From Actinokineospora spheciospongiae (lineage in GTDB: Bacteria; Actinomycetota; Actinomycetes; Mycobacteriales; Pseudonocardiaceae), in assembly GCF_000564855.1 (NCBI RefSeq), contig NZ_AYXG01000165.1, positions 1-64,000 of the forward strand: DNA of 64,000 nt, in the 5' to 3' direction. The notes beneath the pieces are model-generated. The model saw only the letters and a list, made by a program, of their open reading frames with translations, searched no databases and was not told the origin of the DNA. Positions within the stretch are counted from its first letter, which is position 1. The number at the start of each line of letters is the position of its first letter. This document shows positions 57,104-64,000 of this stretch, piece by piece. Position numbers and translations under genes: made by a program.

Positions 57104-57305
57104 AGGACCTCCCGAAACCGACGCACCATCGAGATAGTGTCATTATCTGGAATGTTCCGGTCCACGGTACCGGCCGGGTCGCCGGAATTCGAGACCGGGA
57201 ACCGCTCCGGTGTGGAGCCCGCGCCCCGGGTCCGCTGCGGCTGAGTGGAGTCTTGTCGGTGCGCCGGGGACGCGGGAGGGTGACCGGGGGAGGACGGAGG
57301 TCGCC

Positions 57306-58610
57306 GTGGAGACGGTCCGGGTCGCGTTCGAGGGGTTGCCGGGCGGGTCCGCGCCGTCGTCGTGGGGGCAGCGGGAGGTGTGGTGCATCGGCGGCCCCGG
57401 GACGGTGATCTCGTTGCGCGGGCTGGTCCCGCTGCCGCCCGGCACGACCGTCGACGACGGCGCCCGGGTGCTGCGGGACCTGGTGCGGCACGAGGCGATG
57501 CGCACCCGCTTCACCGTCGGCGCGGGCGGTTCGCTGGCCGAGCAGGCCGTGGCCGCCGAAGGTGAGGTGGAGATGGAGGTCGTGCCCGTCGTGGACGGGG
57601 ACGGGGAGGCGACCGCGCGCGGCGTCCTCGCCCGGTACGACGAGCGCGGGGTGGACTGCGTCAACGACTGGCCGATCCGCACCGCGATGGTGGTGGACGG
57701 CGGTGTGCTCACCCACGCGGTGGCGTTCTACAACCACCTGGCCATCGACCTCGGCGGCCTCGACCTGCTCCTGGCCCAGGTCGCCGGGAAGGACCCCGCG
57801 ACCGGGCGGACCCCGCGCGAACAGGCGCGGTGGCAGAACTCCCCCGCCGGGACCGCGCAGAGCGACCGGGCGCTGCGGCGCTGGCGCACCCTGCTGCGCG
57901 GGGCGCCCGCCCGCCGCTTCCCGCGCGGGCGCGGCGGTCCGGGGGTGGGCTACCGCAAGCTGCTGCACACCTCCCCCGCCGCCGCGCTGGGGGCGGCCGT
58001 GCTGGCCGAGAACACCGGGCAGGGCACGGGCAACGTGCTGCTGGCGGCGTACGCGGTGGCGGTGGCCCGGCTGACCGGGGTGGCGACGGCGGTGGTGCGG
58101 CTGGTGGTGCACAACCGGTTCCGCCCGGACCTGGCCGGGTCGGTCGGCGCGGTGAGCCAGTTCGGCCTGTGCGCCATCGACACCGGCGCCGACTTCCGCG
58201 CGGTGGTCGGCAACGCCTGGCGGGCCTCGCTGCACGCGTACAAGAACGCCTACCACGACCCGGTGCAACGGTTGGCGCTGCTGGATTCGGTGTCCGCCGA
58301 ACGCGGTGAGCAGGTGCACACCGACGTGCTGTTCAACGACCGCAGGCGCGTCCGGGACACCCCGGCCACCGCCTCCGCCGAGGAGGTCCGGGCGGCCCTC
58401 GGGCGGGCGACGGCGCAGTGGGAGCCCTGGCCGTTCCCGGCGCCTCCCGGGGAAACGCTGTACCTGCACGTGGACGACACCGACGCGGGCACGGTGTTCA
58501 CCGTGTGCGGCGACACCGACCACCTGAGCCCGGAGGAACTGCTGGAACTGCCGGTCATCATGGAGACGGTGATCGCCGAGGCCGCGATCGGGGTGCTCAG
58601 GACCTGTTGA
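57306..58610 (+). CDS. Free-standing condensation-domain protein (converging gene)
   Basis: 434 residues with the fold marks of NRPS condensation domains: WGQREVW near the start, the active-site loop at Y142-N143-H144-LAI-D148 (NHxxxD instead of HHxxxD, keeping the second histidine and aspartate), and a C-terminal TLYLHVDDTDAGTVFTVCGDTDHLS similar to that of its neighbour at 58795. It has no adenylation or carrier domain. GGAGG supports GTG 57306. It would join an acyl or aminoacyl group from a carrier protein to an amine or alcohol. Converges on the biosynthetic operon. Confidence 0.83.
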   Translation: METVRVAFEGLPGGSAPSSWGQREVWCIGGPGTVISLRGLVPLPPGTTVDDGARVLRDLVRHEAMRTRFTVGAGGSLAEQAVAAEGEVEMEVVPVVDGDGEATARGVLARYDERGVDCVNDWPIRTAMVVDGGVLTHAVAFYNHLAIDLGGLDLLLAQVAGKDPATGRTPREQARWQNSPAGTAQSDRALRRWRTLLRGAPARRFPRGRGGPGVGYRKLLHTSPAAALGAAVLAENTGQGTGNVLLAAYAVAVARLTGVATAVVRLVVHNRFRPDLAGSVGAVSQFGLCAIDTGADFRAVVGNAWRASLHAYKNAYHDPVQRLALLDSVSAERGEQVHTDVLFNDRRRVRDTPATASAEEVRAALGRATAQWEPWPFPAPPGETLYLHVDDTDAGTVFTVCGDTDHLSPEELLELPVIMETVIAEAAIGVLRTC

Positions 58611-58620
58611 GCGGCCGGGT

Positions 58621-58653
58621 GTTGTGGGGGCGGGCGGGGCACGCCCCCACAAC
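58621..58653. terminator. Bidirectional terminator between the condensation genes
   Basis: GTTGTGGGGGCG-GGCGGGGCA-CGCCCCCACAAC, a perfect 12-bp stem. It follows the stop at 58610 by ten bases, and the second micro-ORF of the opposite operon by 41. Confidence 0.75.
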
Positions 58654-58694
58654 CGGTGTCGACGGGCCGGGCCTGCGCCCGGCGCTCGCCTGAC

Positions 58695-58712
58695 TCACTT
58701 GATCTCGATCAT
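58695..58712 (-). CDS. Micro-ORF MIEIK, copy 2
   Basis: ATGATCGAGATCAAGTGA on the minus strand, preceded by GGGAGGTG six bases before the ATG. Identical at every base to copy 1 at 58781-58798, while the sequence before it has diverged. Last translated element of the leftward operon, before the terminator at 58621. An 18-base gene is at the limit of what is known (the biarylitide precursor bytA is also 18 bases), so I hold this as a candidate only. Confidence 0.4.
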   Translation of the reverse strand: MIEIK

Positions 58713-58780
58713 GTGCGCACCTCCCGGGGATCTGGCCCGCGTGCTCGGCGGGGACGGTGGGTTCGGCCCGCGCGGCGGGG

Positions 58781-58798
58781 TCACTTGATCTCGATCAT
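58781..58798 (-). CDS. Micro-ORF MIEIK, copy 1, coupled to the condensation gene
   Basis: ATGATCGAGATCAAGTGA with GAGGAGGTG six bases upstream. Its ATG overlaps the stop of the condensation gene at 58795 (ATGA), the same coupling used by most genes in this operon. Possible roles: minimal precursor peptide, regulatory leader peptide, or a chance ORF in a duplicated 3' end. Confidence 0.45.
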   Translation of the reverse strand: MIEIK

Positions 58799-60228
58799 GC
58801 GGACACCTCCTCGGGTGCCTGGCCGGGGTGCTCGGCGGGGGTGGCGGGAACGCCCGTGCGGGCTCCCGGGTCGGTGTGGGCCTGCACGGCGGCGGCCTCG
58901 ATCGCGCGCACCACGGCCTCGGTGTCGGCGGCGGTGAAGTACCGGGTGTCCACCGACAGCGCGAAGTCGACGACCACCTCCCCGGTGACCGGGTCGACCG
59001 GGTCGTCGAGGTGCAGGTACAGCTTCTGCCTCGGCATCCCCGGCTCGTCCTCCCAGTGGACCTCCGACCGCGCCAGGGCGGCGGCGATCTGCTCCGGGGT
59101 GGGGTCGGGGGCGTCCTCGGCGACGCGGTCGGCGGCGCGGCGGTCGTTGTAGAAGCAGGAGTAGTCGAACGGGGTGCCCAGCTCGCCGTTGACCCGGGCC
59201 AGGACCTCGTCCTGGTGGTTGGGGTCGTAGTAGGCGTGCTTGTAGGCGTTCATCGTGCTGCGCGCCGCCCTGGCGACCGCCTCGGCCACGGTGGTGTCGC
59301 CGACGTCGATCAGGTACGGGCTGATCTGGACCAGGGTGCTCACCGACCGGGCGAAGCCGGGGCGGAAGCGGTTGCCGACCATGAGCATCGCCAGCACCGG
59401 GTTGGACCCGGTGACCCGGGCCAGGCCGACCGCGAAGCAGGCCAGCAGCACCGCCGACGTGCTCACCCCGGAGCGGCGGGCCACCGCGTCCACGGCGAGC
59501 CGGGTGGCGGGCGAGCGGTAGCGGACCATCCGGTACGGGCGCGGGTCGGTGTGCCGGGGTGGGCCGAACCGGCTCACCGGGGCGGTGCGCAGCACCCGCT
59601 CGAAGTGGCGCAGCGCGGCAGCGGACTGGCGCAGCGCGGCGGGTCGCTGTTGTTGCGCGGCCTGCTCCAGCGGCGGCATGGCGTCGAGGTCGGGGCCTTC
59701 CCCGGTGGCGGGGTCGCGGGCGGCCATGTCGGCGATGAGCGCGGCGAGGCCACCGGCGTCCATGGACAGGTGCAGGTAGACCGCGACCATGTGGGTCAGC
59801 TCGGTGCCGACGCGGACCACGCCCATCCGCACCGGCCACTCGTGTTCGTAGTCGAACGGGACGGCGGCGTAGCGCTCCTCCAGGGCGGCGGCGACCTCGG
59901 CCGGGTCGGCGCTGCCCGCGTCGACGACCTCCAGTGGCACCTCGCCCTCCGCCGAGCAGACCTGGAGCGGGTCGGCGCCCGCGCGCAGGGCCAGCCGGGT
60001 GCGCAGCGCCGGGTGCCTGCGCATGACGTAGGCCAGCAGGTCGGTGAGGTCGGCCACGGTGAGCCCGAGGCCCGCGATCGAGGTGGACCCGCCCATGGTC
60101 CGCGACTCGCCGGACCCGGCGATGGCCTGCCAGATGCCGATCTGCCCCCAGGTCAGCGGTCCGGTGCCCGCGCCGTCGCCGCGGAACGGCACCGGCACCC
60201 GCTCCACCACCGGGAGTGTCGTCCTCAC
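58795..60228 (-). CDS. Free-standing condensation-domain protein (operon gene)
   Basis: 477 residues. Condensation-domain marks: LTWGQIGIWQ near the start, Y151-L152-H153-LSM-D157 in the active-site loop (again lacking the first histidine of HHxxxD), FRPGFARSVSTLVQ and the C-terminal LYLHLDDPVDPVTGEVVVDF. It is a paralogue of the gene at 57306. GTG 60228 overlaps the E1 beta stop (GTGA), so I prefer it to GTG 60237. It probably condenses a carrier-bound acyl unit with an amine. Confidence 0.83.
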   Translation of the reverse strand: MRTTLPVVERVPVPFRGDGAGTGPLTWGQIGIWQAIAGSGESRTMGGSTSIAGLGLTVADLTDLLAYVMRRHPALRTRLALRAGADPLQVCSAEGEVPLEVVDAGSADPAEVAAALEERYAAVPFDYEHEWPVRMGVVRVGTELTHMVAVYLHLSMDAGGLAALIADMAARDPATGEGPDLDAMPPLEQAAQQQRPAALRQSAAALRHFERVLRTAPVSRFGPPRHTDPRPYRMVRYRSPATRLAVDAVARRSGVSTSAVLLACFAVGLARVTGSNPVLAMLMVGNRFRPGFARSVSTLVQISPYLIDVGDTTVAEAVARAARSTMNAYKHAYYDPNHQDEVLARVNGELGTPFDYSCFYNDRRAADRVAEDAPDPTPEQIAAALARSEVHWEDEPGMPRQKLYLHLDDPVDPVTGEVVVDFALSVDTRYFTAADTEAVVRAIEAAAVQAHTDPGARTGVPATPAEHPGQAPEEVSA

Positions 60229-61208
60229 GCGCCCCACCCCGATTCCTTGAGCACCGAGCGGACGGCGTCGGCGATCTGCTCGCGGGTCGGCTGCAACACC
60301 GCGTCCAGTTCGGGGGCGGCGCCCACGACCGCGCCGTCGGGTCTGCTCACCCGCTTCGGCGGCACCCGCAGCGGCAGCTCCTCCGCGGCGGTGGCCAGGA
60401 CCTCCGCGCCCAGGCCGGAGAAGCGGTTGGTGTCGTCGGCGACGACCAGGCGCCCGGTGCGCCCGACCGACTCGGCCAGCAGGTCCCAGTCGAACGGGTA
60501 CACCGTGCGCGGGTCGAACACCTCCACCGAGATGTCCCCGGCGAGGTCGTCGGCGACCGCGATCGCCTCGTGCACCAGGTGCCCGGTGGCCACCAGGGTG
60601 ACGTCGGTGCCCGCGCGGTGGATGCGGCCCTTCCCCAGCGGGACCGGGACCAGGTCGGCGTGGTCGACGTCCTCGCGGACACCCAGGCAGGCCAGCGGGC
60701 CGATCACCACCACCGGGTCGTCGTCGCGGATCGCGGTGGTGAGCAGGCCGTAGGCGTCGGTGGGGGTGGCCGGGAGGACCGTCTTGACGCCCATGTGCGC
60801 GAACAGGCTGTAGGGCTGGTCGGAGTGCTGGGCGCCCCAGCCGGGCCGGTGCCCGCCCGCGGGCATCAGGTAGGTGACCGGGACGCTGCGCTGCCCGCCG
60901 CTCATGAGCAGGAACTTGTTGGCCTGGTTGGTGATCTGCTCGAACACCAGCAGCAGCAGGAACGGGATCTGGAACTCCACCACCGGGCGCCGACCGGCCA
61001 GCGCGGCGCCGGTGGCGAAGTTGGTGAAGCCCTGCTCCGACAGCGGCATCTCCAGCACCCGGTCGGCGCCGAAGCGGTCCAGGAAGCCGGAGGTGGTGTT
61101 GGTGAGGGCGAAGTTCATGTCCTCGCCCAGCACGAACACCGACTCGTCGCGGTCCATCTCGTCGCGGAGCGCGCGGTGCAGGGCCTTGAGGTACGACAGC
61201 TTGGGCAC
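60225..61208 (-). CDS. 2-oxoacid dehydrogenase E1 beta-type (transketolase beta) subunit
   Basis: 327 residues: VFVLGEDMNFALTNTTSGFLDRFG, LEMPLSEQGFTNFATGAALAGRRPVVE, and the C-terminal transketolase domain (VEVFDPRTVYPFDWDLLAESV). Pairs with the E1 alpha gene 24 bases upstream; ribosome site GGGGAGGAG. No E2 or E3 gene is present, so the thiamine-bound acyl or glycolyl unit is perhaps passed to a carrier protein, as in quinocarcin-type pathways (QncN/QncL). That is inference. Confidence 0.85.
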   Translation of the reverse strand: MPKLSYLKALHRALRDEMDRDESVFVLGEDMNFALTNTTSGFLDRFGADRVLEMPLSEQGFTNFATGAALAGRRPVVEFQIPFLLLLVFEQITNQANKFLLMSGGQRSVPVTYLMPAGGHRPGWGAQHSDQPYSLFAHMGVKTVLPATPTDAYGLLTTAIRDDDPVVVIGPLACLGVREDVDHADLVPVPLGKGRIHRAGTDVTLVATGHLVHEAIAVADDLAGDISVEVFDPRTVYPFDWDLLAESVGRTGRLVVADDTNRFSGLGAEVLATAAEELPLRVPPKRVSRPDGAVVGAAPELDAVLQPTREQIADAVRSVLKESGWGA

Positions 61209-61232: not shown

Positions 61233-62246
61233 TCATCGGGCGGACCCGGGGCGCGGGCGGAGTCCGTCGGCGTGCAGGTGGTCGGTGGCGGTGGCCGGGT
61301 CGGGGTACGGGCTCGCCACGGCGAACCGGACCACCTCGTCGAGCCGCGCCTCCACCTCGGCGTCGACGCGGGCGCGCTCGTCCTCGGCGACCCGGGCAGC
61401 CTGGATCAGCAGCGGGTCCCTGCCCAGCCACGAGTCCACTTCAGATTGTTCGCGGTACCTGAGCCGGGTTTTCAGCTCGAACGTGTGGTGCCCGTGGTAG
61501 CGGTAGGTACGCATCTCCAGCAGCGAGGGACCACCGCCGGACCTGGCGCGGACCACCGCCTCGCGCACGGCGGCGTACACGGTTTCCGCGTCCTGACCAT
61601 CCACGGAGGACGAGGGGATGCCGAACGCCTCGCCGCGGCCGACGACCGTGCCCGCGATGGCGGCCCCGGCGGGCAGGGTGGTGGCGTAGCCGTTGTTCTC
61701 GCACACGTAGACGACCGGCAGCCGCCACAGGGCGGCGAGGTTGAAGCCCTCCAGCAGCGCGCCCTGGCTGACCGCGCCGTCGCCGAAGAAGCTCAGCACC
61801 ACGCGCGGGGAACCCGCCGTGGCCGCCGCCCAGCCGATGCCCGCGGCGATGGCGGCGCCGTGGCCGACGGTGCCGGTGGCGTTGAAGACGTTCGCGGAGA
61901 AGTCCGAGGGGTGGAACGACCCGCCCCGGCCGCGGTCGATCCCGGTGGCGCGGCCCGCCAGCTCGGCCATGAGCCGGGCCGGGTCGCAGCCCTTGGCCAG
62001 CAGGTGTCCGTGGCCGCGGTGGCTGGAGAGCACGACGTCGTCGGCGTCGAGGGTGGCGACGGCACCGGCGGCGACGGCTTCCTGCCCGATGCAGGGGTGG
62101 ATGCCACTGCGGATCTCCCCCGCCTTGACCAACTCGACCGCGCGTTCCTCGAAGCGGCGGATGAACCGGATCGTCCGGTAGAGCGCCGCGCTGTCCGGCA
62201 CCGCGCTGTCGGCCTCGGTGGCGGGCACCTCGTCGAGGACGCTCAC
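61233..62246 (-). CDS. 2-oxoacid dehydrogenase E1 alpha-type subunit
   Basis: 337 residues: IRSGIHPCIGQEAVAAGA, SSHRGHGHLLAKG, the thiamine-diphosphate motif starting FFGDGAVSQGALLEGFN and ending ENNGYA, and RTYRYHGHHTFE. GTG 62246 overlaps the stop of the ligase gene (GTGA). With E1 beta it makes an alpha2beta2 TPP enzyme of the pyruvate, acetoin or branched-chain type. Confidence 0.87.
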   Translation of the reverse strand: MSVLDEVPATEADSAVPDSAALYRTIRFIRRFEERAVELVKAGEIRSGIHPCIGQEAVAAGAVATLDADDVVLSSHRGHGHLLAKGCDPARLMAELAGRATGIDRGRGGSFHPSDFSANVFNATGTVGHGAAIAAGIGWAAATAGSPRVVLSFFGDGAVSQGALLEGFNLAALWRLPVVYVCENNGYATTLPAGAAIAGTVVGRGEAFGIPSSSVDGQDAETVYAAVREAVVRARSGGGPSLLEMRTYRYHGHHTFELKTRLRYREQSEVDSWLGRDPLLIQAARVAEDERARVDAEVEARLDEVVRFAVASPYPDPATATDHLHADGLRPRPGSAR

Positions 62247-63145
62247 GTGGTCGCCTCCAGCACGGCCGCCGCATCGTCGCCGTGCGCGTGGATCAACGCC
62301 ATGGCCAGCCGTTCCAGGCCGAAGGCCAGGCACGCCGTGTGCGCGGGGGCAGCGTCGGCGGTCAGGTCGAAGGCGACGCCGAAGTGGTCCTTGTGGTGGT
62401 TCGCCGACGCCACCGCCTGCACCACGCCGTCGGCCACCGGGACCTTCAGCTCGAACTTGAGTTCCTGGAGGCGTTGCGCGGCCTGGAAGACCTTCTTGCC
62501 CGGCCCGAAGAACGGGTCGTCGGCGGCCTCGACCACCGGCGCCAGCCCCAGGTCGGTGAACCACCGGCCGACCCGGTCGAGCCAGTCCGCCCGCCAACGC
62601 AGGCAGTGCTCCTCGGCCCCGGCGGTGACCAGCTCCAGCATCCGGAACGAGCGCAGCCGCCCGGCCTCGCCGGTGGCCTCGTCGCGGAAGCAGGTGGCCT
62701 GCACGGTGACCCTGGCCGGGGTGTCGACGGCGGTCCCCGCGAGCGCGGCGTAGACCGGGTAGCAGGCGGCGGGCAGCAGCACCAGGTCCCGGATCTCCTG
62801 CTGGGCGTGCCAGTCGCCGCCCGTACCGACCAGCGGGCGGAGCCGGGCCCAGCCCGACGCGGTGCCCCGGTAGCCGTGCACGGTGCCGAGCAGTTGCGGG
62901 AACGCCTCGACGTAGCCCGCGCGCTCGATGGTGGCCCGGGAGATCACCGGCGGGACGACCAGCCGCTGGAACGGCTCGGTCGCGGCCAGCCGGGCCACCC
63001 CGGCGCGCAGCGCGTCGACCACCCGCTCGAACGCCTCCGGGTAGAGGAAGACCCCGGGGACGGCGGTGGGGATCGGCAGACCGCTCTCCGGAACCCGGGG
63101 CGGCACGGGGGCGGTGGGGTTCGCGCTGGGGATGGTGCTGGTCAT
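62243..63145 (-). CDS. Class II aaRS-like amino acid:[carrier protein] ligase
   Basis: 300 residues, a truncated seryl-tRNA-synthetase-like catalytic core without a tRNA-binding arm. VQATCFRDEATGEAGRLRSF with FRMLELV holds motif 2 and the first two zinc ligands (Cys, Glu); HTACLAFGLERLAMAL holds the third ligand Cys and motif 3 (GLERL). This matches enzymes that adenylate a small amino acid and load it on a phosphopantetheinyl carrier protein. The PPTase gene next to it (ATGA overlap) fits. Confidence 0.85.
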   Translation of the reverse strand: MTSTIPSANPTAPVPPRVPESGLPIPTAVPGVFLYPEAFERVVDALRAGVARLAATEPFQRLVVPPVISRATIERAGYVEAFPQLLGTVHGYRGTASGWARLRPLVGTGGDWHAQQEIRDLVLLPAACYPVYAALAGTAVDTPARVTVQATCFRDEATGEAGRLRSFRMLELVTAGAEEHCLRWRADWLDRVGRWFTDLGLAPVVEAADDPFFGPGKKVFQAAQRLQELKFELKVPVADGVVQAVASANHHKDHFGVAFDLTADAAPAHTACLAFGLERLAMALIHAHGDDAAAVLEATT

Positions 63146-63795
63146 GGGGTCTCCCGTTCGTGCCATCGGTGTGCGCGCACCCGGTACGGCGCCGCGCCCC
63201 CGACGGCGACGGCGGCGGCGAAGCCCGCGGGTGCGGTGAGGTCGCGGACCCGGTACCGGCCCCCGTCCGCCTCCCCGACCACGTCCCGGTCGAGCACCGG
63301 ACGGCGCAGGCCGGGGAACAGCCGCCCACCCGAGGCCTTGACGCAGGCCTCCTTGCGGGTGAGCAGGCGAGTGAGCAGGGCGGGGCGTTCGGCCGCGGCG
63401 GCGGCGCGCACCCGGTGCGCCTCCTCGGCGGCGAAGAACCTCTCGGCGGTGCGGACCGCGTCGGTGTGCAGCAGGCGTTGCAGGTCCACGCCGAGCGGCC
63501 GGTCGCGGGTGAGCGCCACCATGGCGACCCCGGCGGAGCGGGACAGGCTCACGCTGACCCCCGGCACCTCCGGTTTGCCGTGCGCGCCGATCCGCCAGCG
63601 CACCTCGGCCGGGGCCAGGCCCAGGCGCCTGCCGACGACGGCCCGCGCGGCGCCGTGCGCGGCGACGAACTCCCGGCGGTGCGGCCGGTCCAGCGCCGCG
63701 GCCCGGCGCCGCTCCTCGGGGTCGAGCACGCCCTCCAGCCGGTCCAGGACGGCGTCGGGGAGGTCGGGGACGAGCCAGACGTGCACGCTGGTCAT
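63142..63795 (-). CDS. 4'-phosphopantetheinyl transferase (Sfp type)
   Basis: 217 residues: RWRIGAHGKPEVPGVSVSLSRSAG split into the P1/P1a region, RPLGVDLQ (the P2 motif, usually GVDxE; here the glutamate is glutamine), and the P3 motif LLTRKEACVKASG. Activates carrier proteins from CoA. It overlaps the partial gene upstream (ATGA) and the ligase gene downstream. Confidence 0.88.
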   Translation of the reverse strand: MTSVHVWLVPDLPDAVLDRLEGVLDPEERRRAAALDRPHRREFVAAHGAARAVVGRRLGLAPAEVRWRIGAHGKPEVPGVSVSLSRSAGVAMVALTRDRPLGVDLQRLLHTDAVRTAERFFAAEEAHRVRAAAAAERPALLTRLLTRKEACVKASGGRLFPGLRRPVLDRDVVGEADGGRYRVRDLTAPAGFAAAVAVGGAAPYRVRAHRWHERETP

Positions 63796-64000
63796 CCGGC
63801 CACCGCCCGCGCGTCGGCCAGTGGGCGGGCCGGGGCGGGCACGTCGAGCGCGGACAGGCTGAGCACGCCCACTTCCGGTGTGTACTCGGCCAGCAGCACC
63901 AGGCCCTCCGGGCGCCCGGTGGCCAGTTCGTACCAGACCCCGGTGCAGGGCTGCCCCTCGGCGGCGACCACGTGCGCGATGCCCGGGGGCAGCAGCCCGG
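63792..64000 (-). CDS. Partial gene at window edge, unknown
   Basis: The last 69 codons of a gene entering from the right: LPPGIAHVVAAEGQPCTG, VWYELATGRPEGLVLLAEY, ending ADARAVAG. Stop overlaps the PPTase start by four bases, so it belongs to the operon. I do not recognise the family from this piece. Confidence 0.7.
   Translation of the reverse strand, partial: GLLPPGIAHVVAAEGQPCTGVWYELATGRPEGLVLLAEYTPEVGVLSLSALDVPAPARPLADARAVAG

Follow-up and report, generated by a model that had tools for sequence, protein, structure and literature searches.

A five-codon micro-ORF conserved behind a condensation-domain gene in Actinokineospora is very probably translated and may act as a leader cistron

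Can a frame of five codons be a gene, and if so, what would it be for? Frames of 18 bp slip past automatic annotation, and the question arises here at the 3' end of a biosynthetic operon from Actinokineospora spheciospongiae, within a stretch of 64,000 nucleotides (the window) that forms part of the 103,207-bp contig C164 in a 7.5 Mb genome (G000). The micro-ORF reads ATG ATC GAG ATC AAG TGA and would encode MIEIK. Copy 1 (58781-58798, minus strand) shares ATGA with the stop of a free-standing condensation-domain gene, C-dom2 (58795-60237, minus strand), and copy 2 (58695-58712, minus strand) consists of the same 18 bases. Each copy is preceded by the Shine-Dalgarno sequence GGAGGTG (58804-58810 and 58718-58724, both minus strand), with the ATG 5 nt after GGAGGTG or 6 nt after GGAGGT. 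Two identical frames behind a strong ribosome site, the first overlapping the condensation-gene stop, is what an earlier note on this DNA had described, and both points hold. The two copies in the window, both on the minus strand, are the only exact occurrences of ATGATCGAGATCAAGTGA in the genome; a scan of the window for further matches with up to two mismatches found none, and shuffled sequences gave 0.

The two copies lie in a tandem duplication (approximately 58683-58860, minus strand) with a unit of 86-87 nt. In ungapped register, blocks of 47 and 44 nt are 79% and 75% identical, at a spacing of 86 and then 87. Pairwise alignment of the units introduces two single-base gaps, both in the flanks, and the ORF is gap-free and unchanged. 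The note had likewise described flanks that drifted and gained an indel around an unchanged ORF and ribosome site.

The test suggested in that note was to align the 3' ends of homologous operons, and the frame passes it. The Shine-Dalgarno sequence followed by ATGATCGAGATCAAGTGA stands after the C-dom2 ortholog in all eight other Actinokineospora genomes that have this gene; the orthologous proteins are 63-66% identical to that of the window (tblastn), and the ATGA overlap is kept. The ribosome site is GGAGGTG in seven of the eight and GGGGGGTG in G045. A pattern tolerant of synonymous codons matched 9 of 16 genomes of the genus, namely the nine that carry C-dom2, and every match was the 18-mer without a change. 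The ORF is invariant in 9/9 clusters and the bases past the stop vary immediately, although the nine genomes are kin and counts across them are not independent. Order-wide, 5 of 397 sampled genomes match the pattern: four are Actinokineospora, and the fifth match (G546) runs antisense inside a 507-aa ORF of an unrelated gene, presumably an aldehyde dehydrogenase, and was taken as chance.

Invariance of all 18 bases in nine genomes could point to an untranslated DNA or RNA element instead, because the 18-mer contains a near-palindrome, the 12-bp inverted repeat TGATC-GA-GATCA, which might be a protein-binding site. The nine genomes all agree at 131 of 610 four-fold sites (G000 shares 61-65% with each other genome), and five conserved cluster genes contain 18 six-codon windows, out of 1762, that do not vary at any base. 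Where residues are invariant in four cluster genes, they mostly keep a single codon (Ile 17/19, Glu 28/47, Lys 10/10), so no constraint at the DNA level is needed; peptide conservation together with codon bias would suffice to explain the invariant nucleotides. Conservation also ends at the stop codon. In Actinophytocola the palindrome is broken (ATGATCGAGGACAAG) while Shine-Dalgarno sequence, ATG and stop persist, and a transcription-factor site was rejected on that ground. We consider an untranslated element highly improbable.

Three clusters in Actinophytocola contain micro-ORFs led by a Shine-Dalgarno sequence, with the letters changed and the ribosome site, ATG and stop retained. G094 has MRIEDKPMVEDKPMIEDKP behind GGAGGTGG, a fused MRIEDKP-MVEDKP-MIEDKP whose units vary in the Pro codon, in Ile or Val, and in an extra Arg in the first unit. 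G148 has MILEKP and then a decayed copy, a second Shine-Dalgarno sequence with an ACG start (TAEKA). G115 has MAVKD, the least alike of the relatives, and after C-dom2 a second frame led by a Shine-Dalgarno sequence, MRVEDKP..., which is 44 aa long and stops 11 nt short of the following gene call; the in-house gene calls are crude. The first micro-ORFs of G115 and G148 share the reading frame of the gene before them, and separate initiation is marked there only by the Shine-Dalgarno sequence. A C-domain tail fragment follows MRVEDKP in G115, similar to one in G148 (see below).

The distribution of the micro-ORF follows that of C-dom2. At E <= 1e-85 the C-dom2 subfamily occurs in 12 of 390 family genomes, namely the nine Actinokineospora and three Actinophytocola with the micro-ORF, and class-wide in 1 of 394 sampled genomes, the window's own. 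Another 24 family genomes had a C-domain match; extended regions covered nine of them, plus L010, and a scan that demanded a strong Shine-Dalgarno sequence, and could therefore miss weakly led ORFs, found no such ORF in these ten regions at more distant C-domains. The wide pattern searches addressed the exact or near-exact form, and diverged Actinophytocola-type forms were sought in the fetched regions only. Three other family matches to a Shine-Dalgarno sequence with M(I/V)ExK open longer frames (122, 110 and 28 aa) and were set aside.

The MIEIK frame is very probably translated, to judge from its conservation in the related clusters and its relatives in a second genus. That its translation is under selection, as the earlier note proposed, is well supported by this comparative evidence: the frame does not change, the bases after its stop do, and the diverged relatives keep the order of ribosome site, ATG, a few codons and stop. 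Conservation of the micro-ORF is thereby measurable over two genera, being invariant in nine genomes, diverged yet recognisable in three, and duplicated in several. Translation could still serve a generic role. A 3'-terminal mini-cistron might help ribosomes to recycle or reinitiate once past the C-domain stop, or protect the mRNA 3' end, with no downstream regulation and no function of the peptide. The shared ATGA and the hairpins that follow the micro-ORF fit such a role, as does its retention in the window genome despite the lack of a downstream gene. However, the three Actinophytocola clusters lack the overlap and have a different gene in front, and a generic role does not predict an invariant peptide; we regard a purely generic mini-cistron as unlikely.

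The gene content of the cluster bears on what a specific function might be. Upstream of C-dom2, all on the minus strand, lie the beta (60225-61208) and alpha (61233-62246) subunits of a TPP-dependent dehydrogenase E1, a class II aaRS-like homolog of amino acid-[carrier protein] ligases (62243-63166, possible start 63145), a 4'-phosphopantetheinyl transferase (63142-63795) and the 3' end of a gene for a 291-aa protein that matches nothing in Pfam or NCBIfam (63792-64000 in the window; C164:63792-64667, L042:3792-4667). The note's E1 is this alpha/beta pair, and its aaRS-like ligase is the ligase homolog, which at 275 bits stays below the model cut-off of 357; no amino acid-[carrier protein] ligase was found in the Actinophytocola regions. 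Homologs of the 291-aa gene are present in the compared clusters, and in Actinophytocola they directly precede the first micro-ORFs (MAVKD in G115 among them). Judged by eye alone, the 291-aa protein looks ketosynthase-III-like. Beyond the operon, to about 83 kb of C164, there are genes for KS, KS/CLF, ACPs, a KSIII-type protein, a second C-domain, a glycosyltransferase, an ABC transporter, PhyH, an aminotransferase, an alpha/beta hydrolase and an FMN-dehydrogenase ortholog. The cluster further contains an HPPD-like dioxygenase (311 bits, cut-off 277) and an AvaA6-like diazotase (463 bits, cut-off 975). The HPPD-like, FMN-dehydrogenase and aminotransferase genes fit a hydroxyphenylglycine pathway. 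The highly reducing type II PKS, the AvaA6-like diazotase and, in the relatives, a CreE/CreD-like pair recall the ava and cma (avenalumic and p-coumaric acid) clusters, whereas free-standing condensation genes, an E1 pair and micro-ORFs are not among the ava and cma genes compared in the part of the source used here (PMC10777205).

One reading of these data is that the micro-ORF is a peptide gene, with MIEIK or MIEDKP serving the cluster enzymes as a substrate, perhaps as the amine acceptor of C-dom2 or as a scaffold that releases a residue as a building block. All 12 of the 390 family genomes with the C-dom2 subfamily have the micro-ORF. C-dom2 is also the sole gene found at high similarity in all 12 micro-ORF clusters (52-66% to that of the window, against 33-38% elsewhere in the fetched regions). 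The FMN-dehydrogenase was seen only beside micro-ORFs, in 7/12 regions versus 0/9 others, the fetched regions being of unequal extent. The fused units of G094 resemble multi-core precursors, and G000, G148 and G115 each have several copies. C-dom2 keeps the second His and the Asp of the motif in 8/8 aligned members (of 12). In the PDB it matches 6cgo, 4znm and 8qnf. The second-best of these, 4znm, is a 'C-domain type II peptide synthetase' that we take to be SgcC5; like that enzyme, C-dom2 is a free-standing C-domain protein, though the similarity is weak (E 1e-4). A precedent for a ribosomal peptide as a source of a building block is the pentapeptide that supplies nitrotyrosine for rufomycin, as given in the part of the source consulted (PMC13417212).

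Other observations count against a peptide gene. The note had compared MIEIK with bytA, the biarylitide precursor, which according to the same source is an 18-bp pentapeptide gene in a biosynthetic cluster, the third and fifth residues being aromatic (PMC13417212). Precursors of this type have a dedicated P450 beside them. The size and setting agree, five residues from 18 bp in a biosynthetic cluster, but MIEIK contains no aromatic residue, with Glu3 and Lys5 at those positions, and no P450 was found among the scanned Actinokineospora cluster proteins, so the likeness to a bytA-type RiPP precursor is not supported. More broadly, no P450, radical-SAM or similar RiPP enzyme turned up among the Pfam-scanned proteins of the window, the G000 cluster and the G152 flank (not every gene). 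The Actinophytocola clusters do have a P450, with a counterpart in 0/9 Actinokineospora regions, yet in several micro-ORF-free regions. Hydroxyphenylglycine-type genes offer a plausible other amine donor, which weakens the peptide-acceptor idea, and the co-occurrence of micro-ORF and C-dom2 may reflect shared ancestry. A second micro-ORF, unrelated in sequence, precedes another gene (see below). A peptide gene is possible, if on the doubtful side. We are more sceptical of its fuller form, in which MIEIK and the (I/V)EDKP relatives would be bona fide micropeptide genes whose products serve as acceptor or scaffold of the free-standing condensation enzyme and feed a type II PKS and carrier-protein pathway with neither P450 nor leader-peptide machinery.

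A different reading turns on what lies downstream. The note placed the micro-ORF at the end of an operon, which is true of the window genome and not of the eight relatives, where a same-strand NAD_binding_9 (CreE-like) gene follows the hairpin, together with a nitrosuccinate-lyase-like gene (543 bits, cut-off 650). CreE/CreD orthologs are absent from the window genome, whose matches (only 41-44% and 30-32%) are on other contigs; an attenuator of CreE/CreD as the whole story was rejected for this reason. A third condensation-domain gene (57210-58610, plus strand), which is about 40% similar to C-dom2 and runs towards the operon, occupies the place of the relatives' CreE/CreD-like genes. In two Actinophytocola clusters the next gene encodes an MFS exporter, and G148 has lost most of its downstream MFS gene. 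At L070:7790-7945 (G148, C63) only the first codons of this gene appear to remain, joined to a second C-domain tail fragment. The layout of Shine-Dalgarno-led ORF, hairpin and following gene is found in the eight other Actinokineospora, G094 and G115, and not in the window genome.

A strong GC hairpin stands downstream in 12/12 MIEIK-type regions. In the window, copy 2 is followed by CCGGGC-GCAG-GCCCGG (58667-58682, minus strand) and then by a strong, terminator-like GC hairpin without a T run, HP2 (58621-58653), between the convergent genes. With hairpins set by hand, the segment from stop to HP2 folds better than shuffles in the 12 regions (mean z -1.92, range +0.51 to -3.38), the window's copy 2 giving z -3.38. 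Scans for T-run terminators, a weak method that detects this type only, found none in two stretches, the hairpins being without T runs. No promoter-like site was found in L045:1900-2150, or in its shuffles, by a weak sigma-70-type scan, and a search for TANNNT behind the MIEIK-type ORF came up empty in all 12 stretches. Rfam gave 0 matches at E <= 0.5 (7 loci, 21,184 bases).

A second micro-ORF family accompanies MIEIK in the cluster. The peptide MR[NSG]VRE[VLA], in some orthologs replaced by the extended forms MRGVRERNVLERNVREA and MSVRERNVLERNVREV, is encoded upstream of the alpha/beta hydrolase in 7/7 in-cluster orthologs, at -110 to -182 nt; in the window genome it lies outside the window, at C164:83025-83048 on the minus strand (comparison L137-L143). 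From its position we infer that it is within the hydrolase 5' UTR. Hydrolase homologs occur at 14 places in 11 of 16 genomes of the genus. The seven in-cluster orthologs are 68-100% identical, and the micro-ORF is missing from five out-of-cluster paralogs and two distant homologs. The hydrolase search returned no in-cluster ortholog in G152 or G236, both of which have the MIEIK cluster. The Shine-Dalgarno sequence is strong in 6/7; G244 has only a G-rich tract, its leader being read by eye. Two genomes carry an in-frame repeat, RNVLE-RNVRE, within the micro-ORF. A strong GC hairpin separates micro-ORF and hydrolase and ends 18-32 nt before the ATG. The stop-to-hairpin segment of this family folds no better than shuffles (z -1.83 to +1.35, mean about -0.06).

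A second micro-ORF before another gene, with hairpins behind both families, argues that a regulatory leader fits at least as well as a RiPP precursor, and it leads us to place a leader ahead of a peptide substrate. We therefore favour, tentatively, the view that the MIEIK micro-ORF is translated and works in cis as a leader, or 'sensor', cistron. A ribosome would load at the strong Shine-Dalgarno sequence, synthesise the five residues and terminate at the stop, ahead of the hairpins; its occupancy or slow termination there would set the folding of the downstream RNA, and this folding in turn how much transcript or translation extends into the cluster gene that comes next. That gene would be CreE/CreD-like in Actinokineospora and the MFS exporter in Actinophytocola. 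Of this model, the conservation, the Shine-Dalgarno sequence, the hairpins and the similarly built second micro-ORF are observed, while translation, occupancy-dependent folding and the identity of the regulated gene are all inferred. Since the window genome lacks the downstream gene and has duplicated the module, the module there would be either a relic or active on the 3' end only.

Several results count for the leader: the ortholog comparison in Actinokineospora, the restriction of the second micro-ORF to the cluster (7/7 in-cluster, 0/5 out-of-cluster), the Actinophytocola relatives with hairpins before the next gene, the folding of the MIEIK-type segment above shuffles and, weakly, the absence of promoter-like and TANNNT sites behind the ORF. 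The second family's lack of excess folding slightly lowers our confidence in the leader. Alternative pairing with the hairpin 5' arm is at chance level (mean z 0.13 for 12 MIEIK-type and 0.21 for 7 MRxVRE-type regions, with power limited in such GC-rich sequence), and a classical antiterminator was rejected because neither micro-ORF family gave a pairing signal above shuffles. This result and the lack of T runs and of a detected terminator count against a leader, as do the missing downstream gene of the window genome, the deletion in G148 and the extension of the MRVEDKP-type frame to 44 aa in G115. Leaders that sense merely ribosome-bound drugs also need no invariant peptide.

Known leader and uORF attenuators of resistance genes include Streptomyces are5sc (MLV), tiaA (MVGDDDISG) and wblC, and bmrB of B. 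subtilis, in the portions of the sources used (PMC12421871, PMC4191407). They share with the present system, so far as those portions go, a very short ORF, hairpins and then a gene, which is the MFS exporter in two Actinophytocola clusters. Unlike them, MIEIK is intra-operonic, its peptide is invariant in nine genomes and it is tandem in some genomes, and no antiterminator pairing was detected for its regions. The word MIEIK occurs in none of the best 8 of 179 papers matched in a literature search. The micro-ORFs would represent either intra-operonic, sequence-specific leader micropeptides in actinomycete clusters or ribosomal pentapeptides that feed condensation enzymes.

The hydrolase leaders show one further feature. 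A weak sigma-70-type promoter scan of one of them found nothing, and by eye four (L137, L138, L139 and L142) appear to share the motif GTGTCCATTC, or a close form of it, in the promoter region at about -220 to -265. A candidate third micro-ORF (MSILH...) in the divergent gap next to the glycosyltransferase (GT) gene was dropped because, by eye, it looks like part of this shared promoter motif. A motif like GTGTCCATTC is also seen by eye in the GT divergent gaps of G211, G228, G244 and G236, and it is possibly a regulator site common to the two transcription units.
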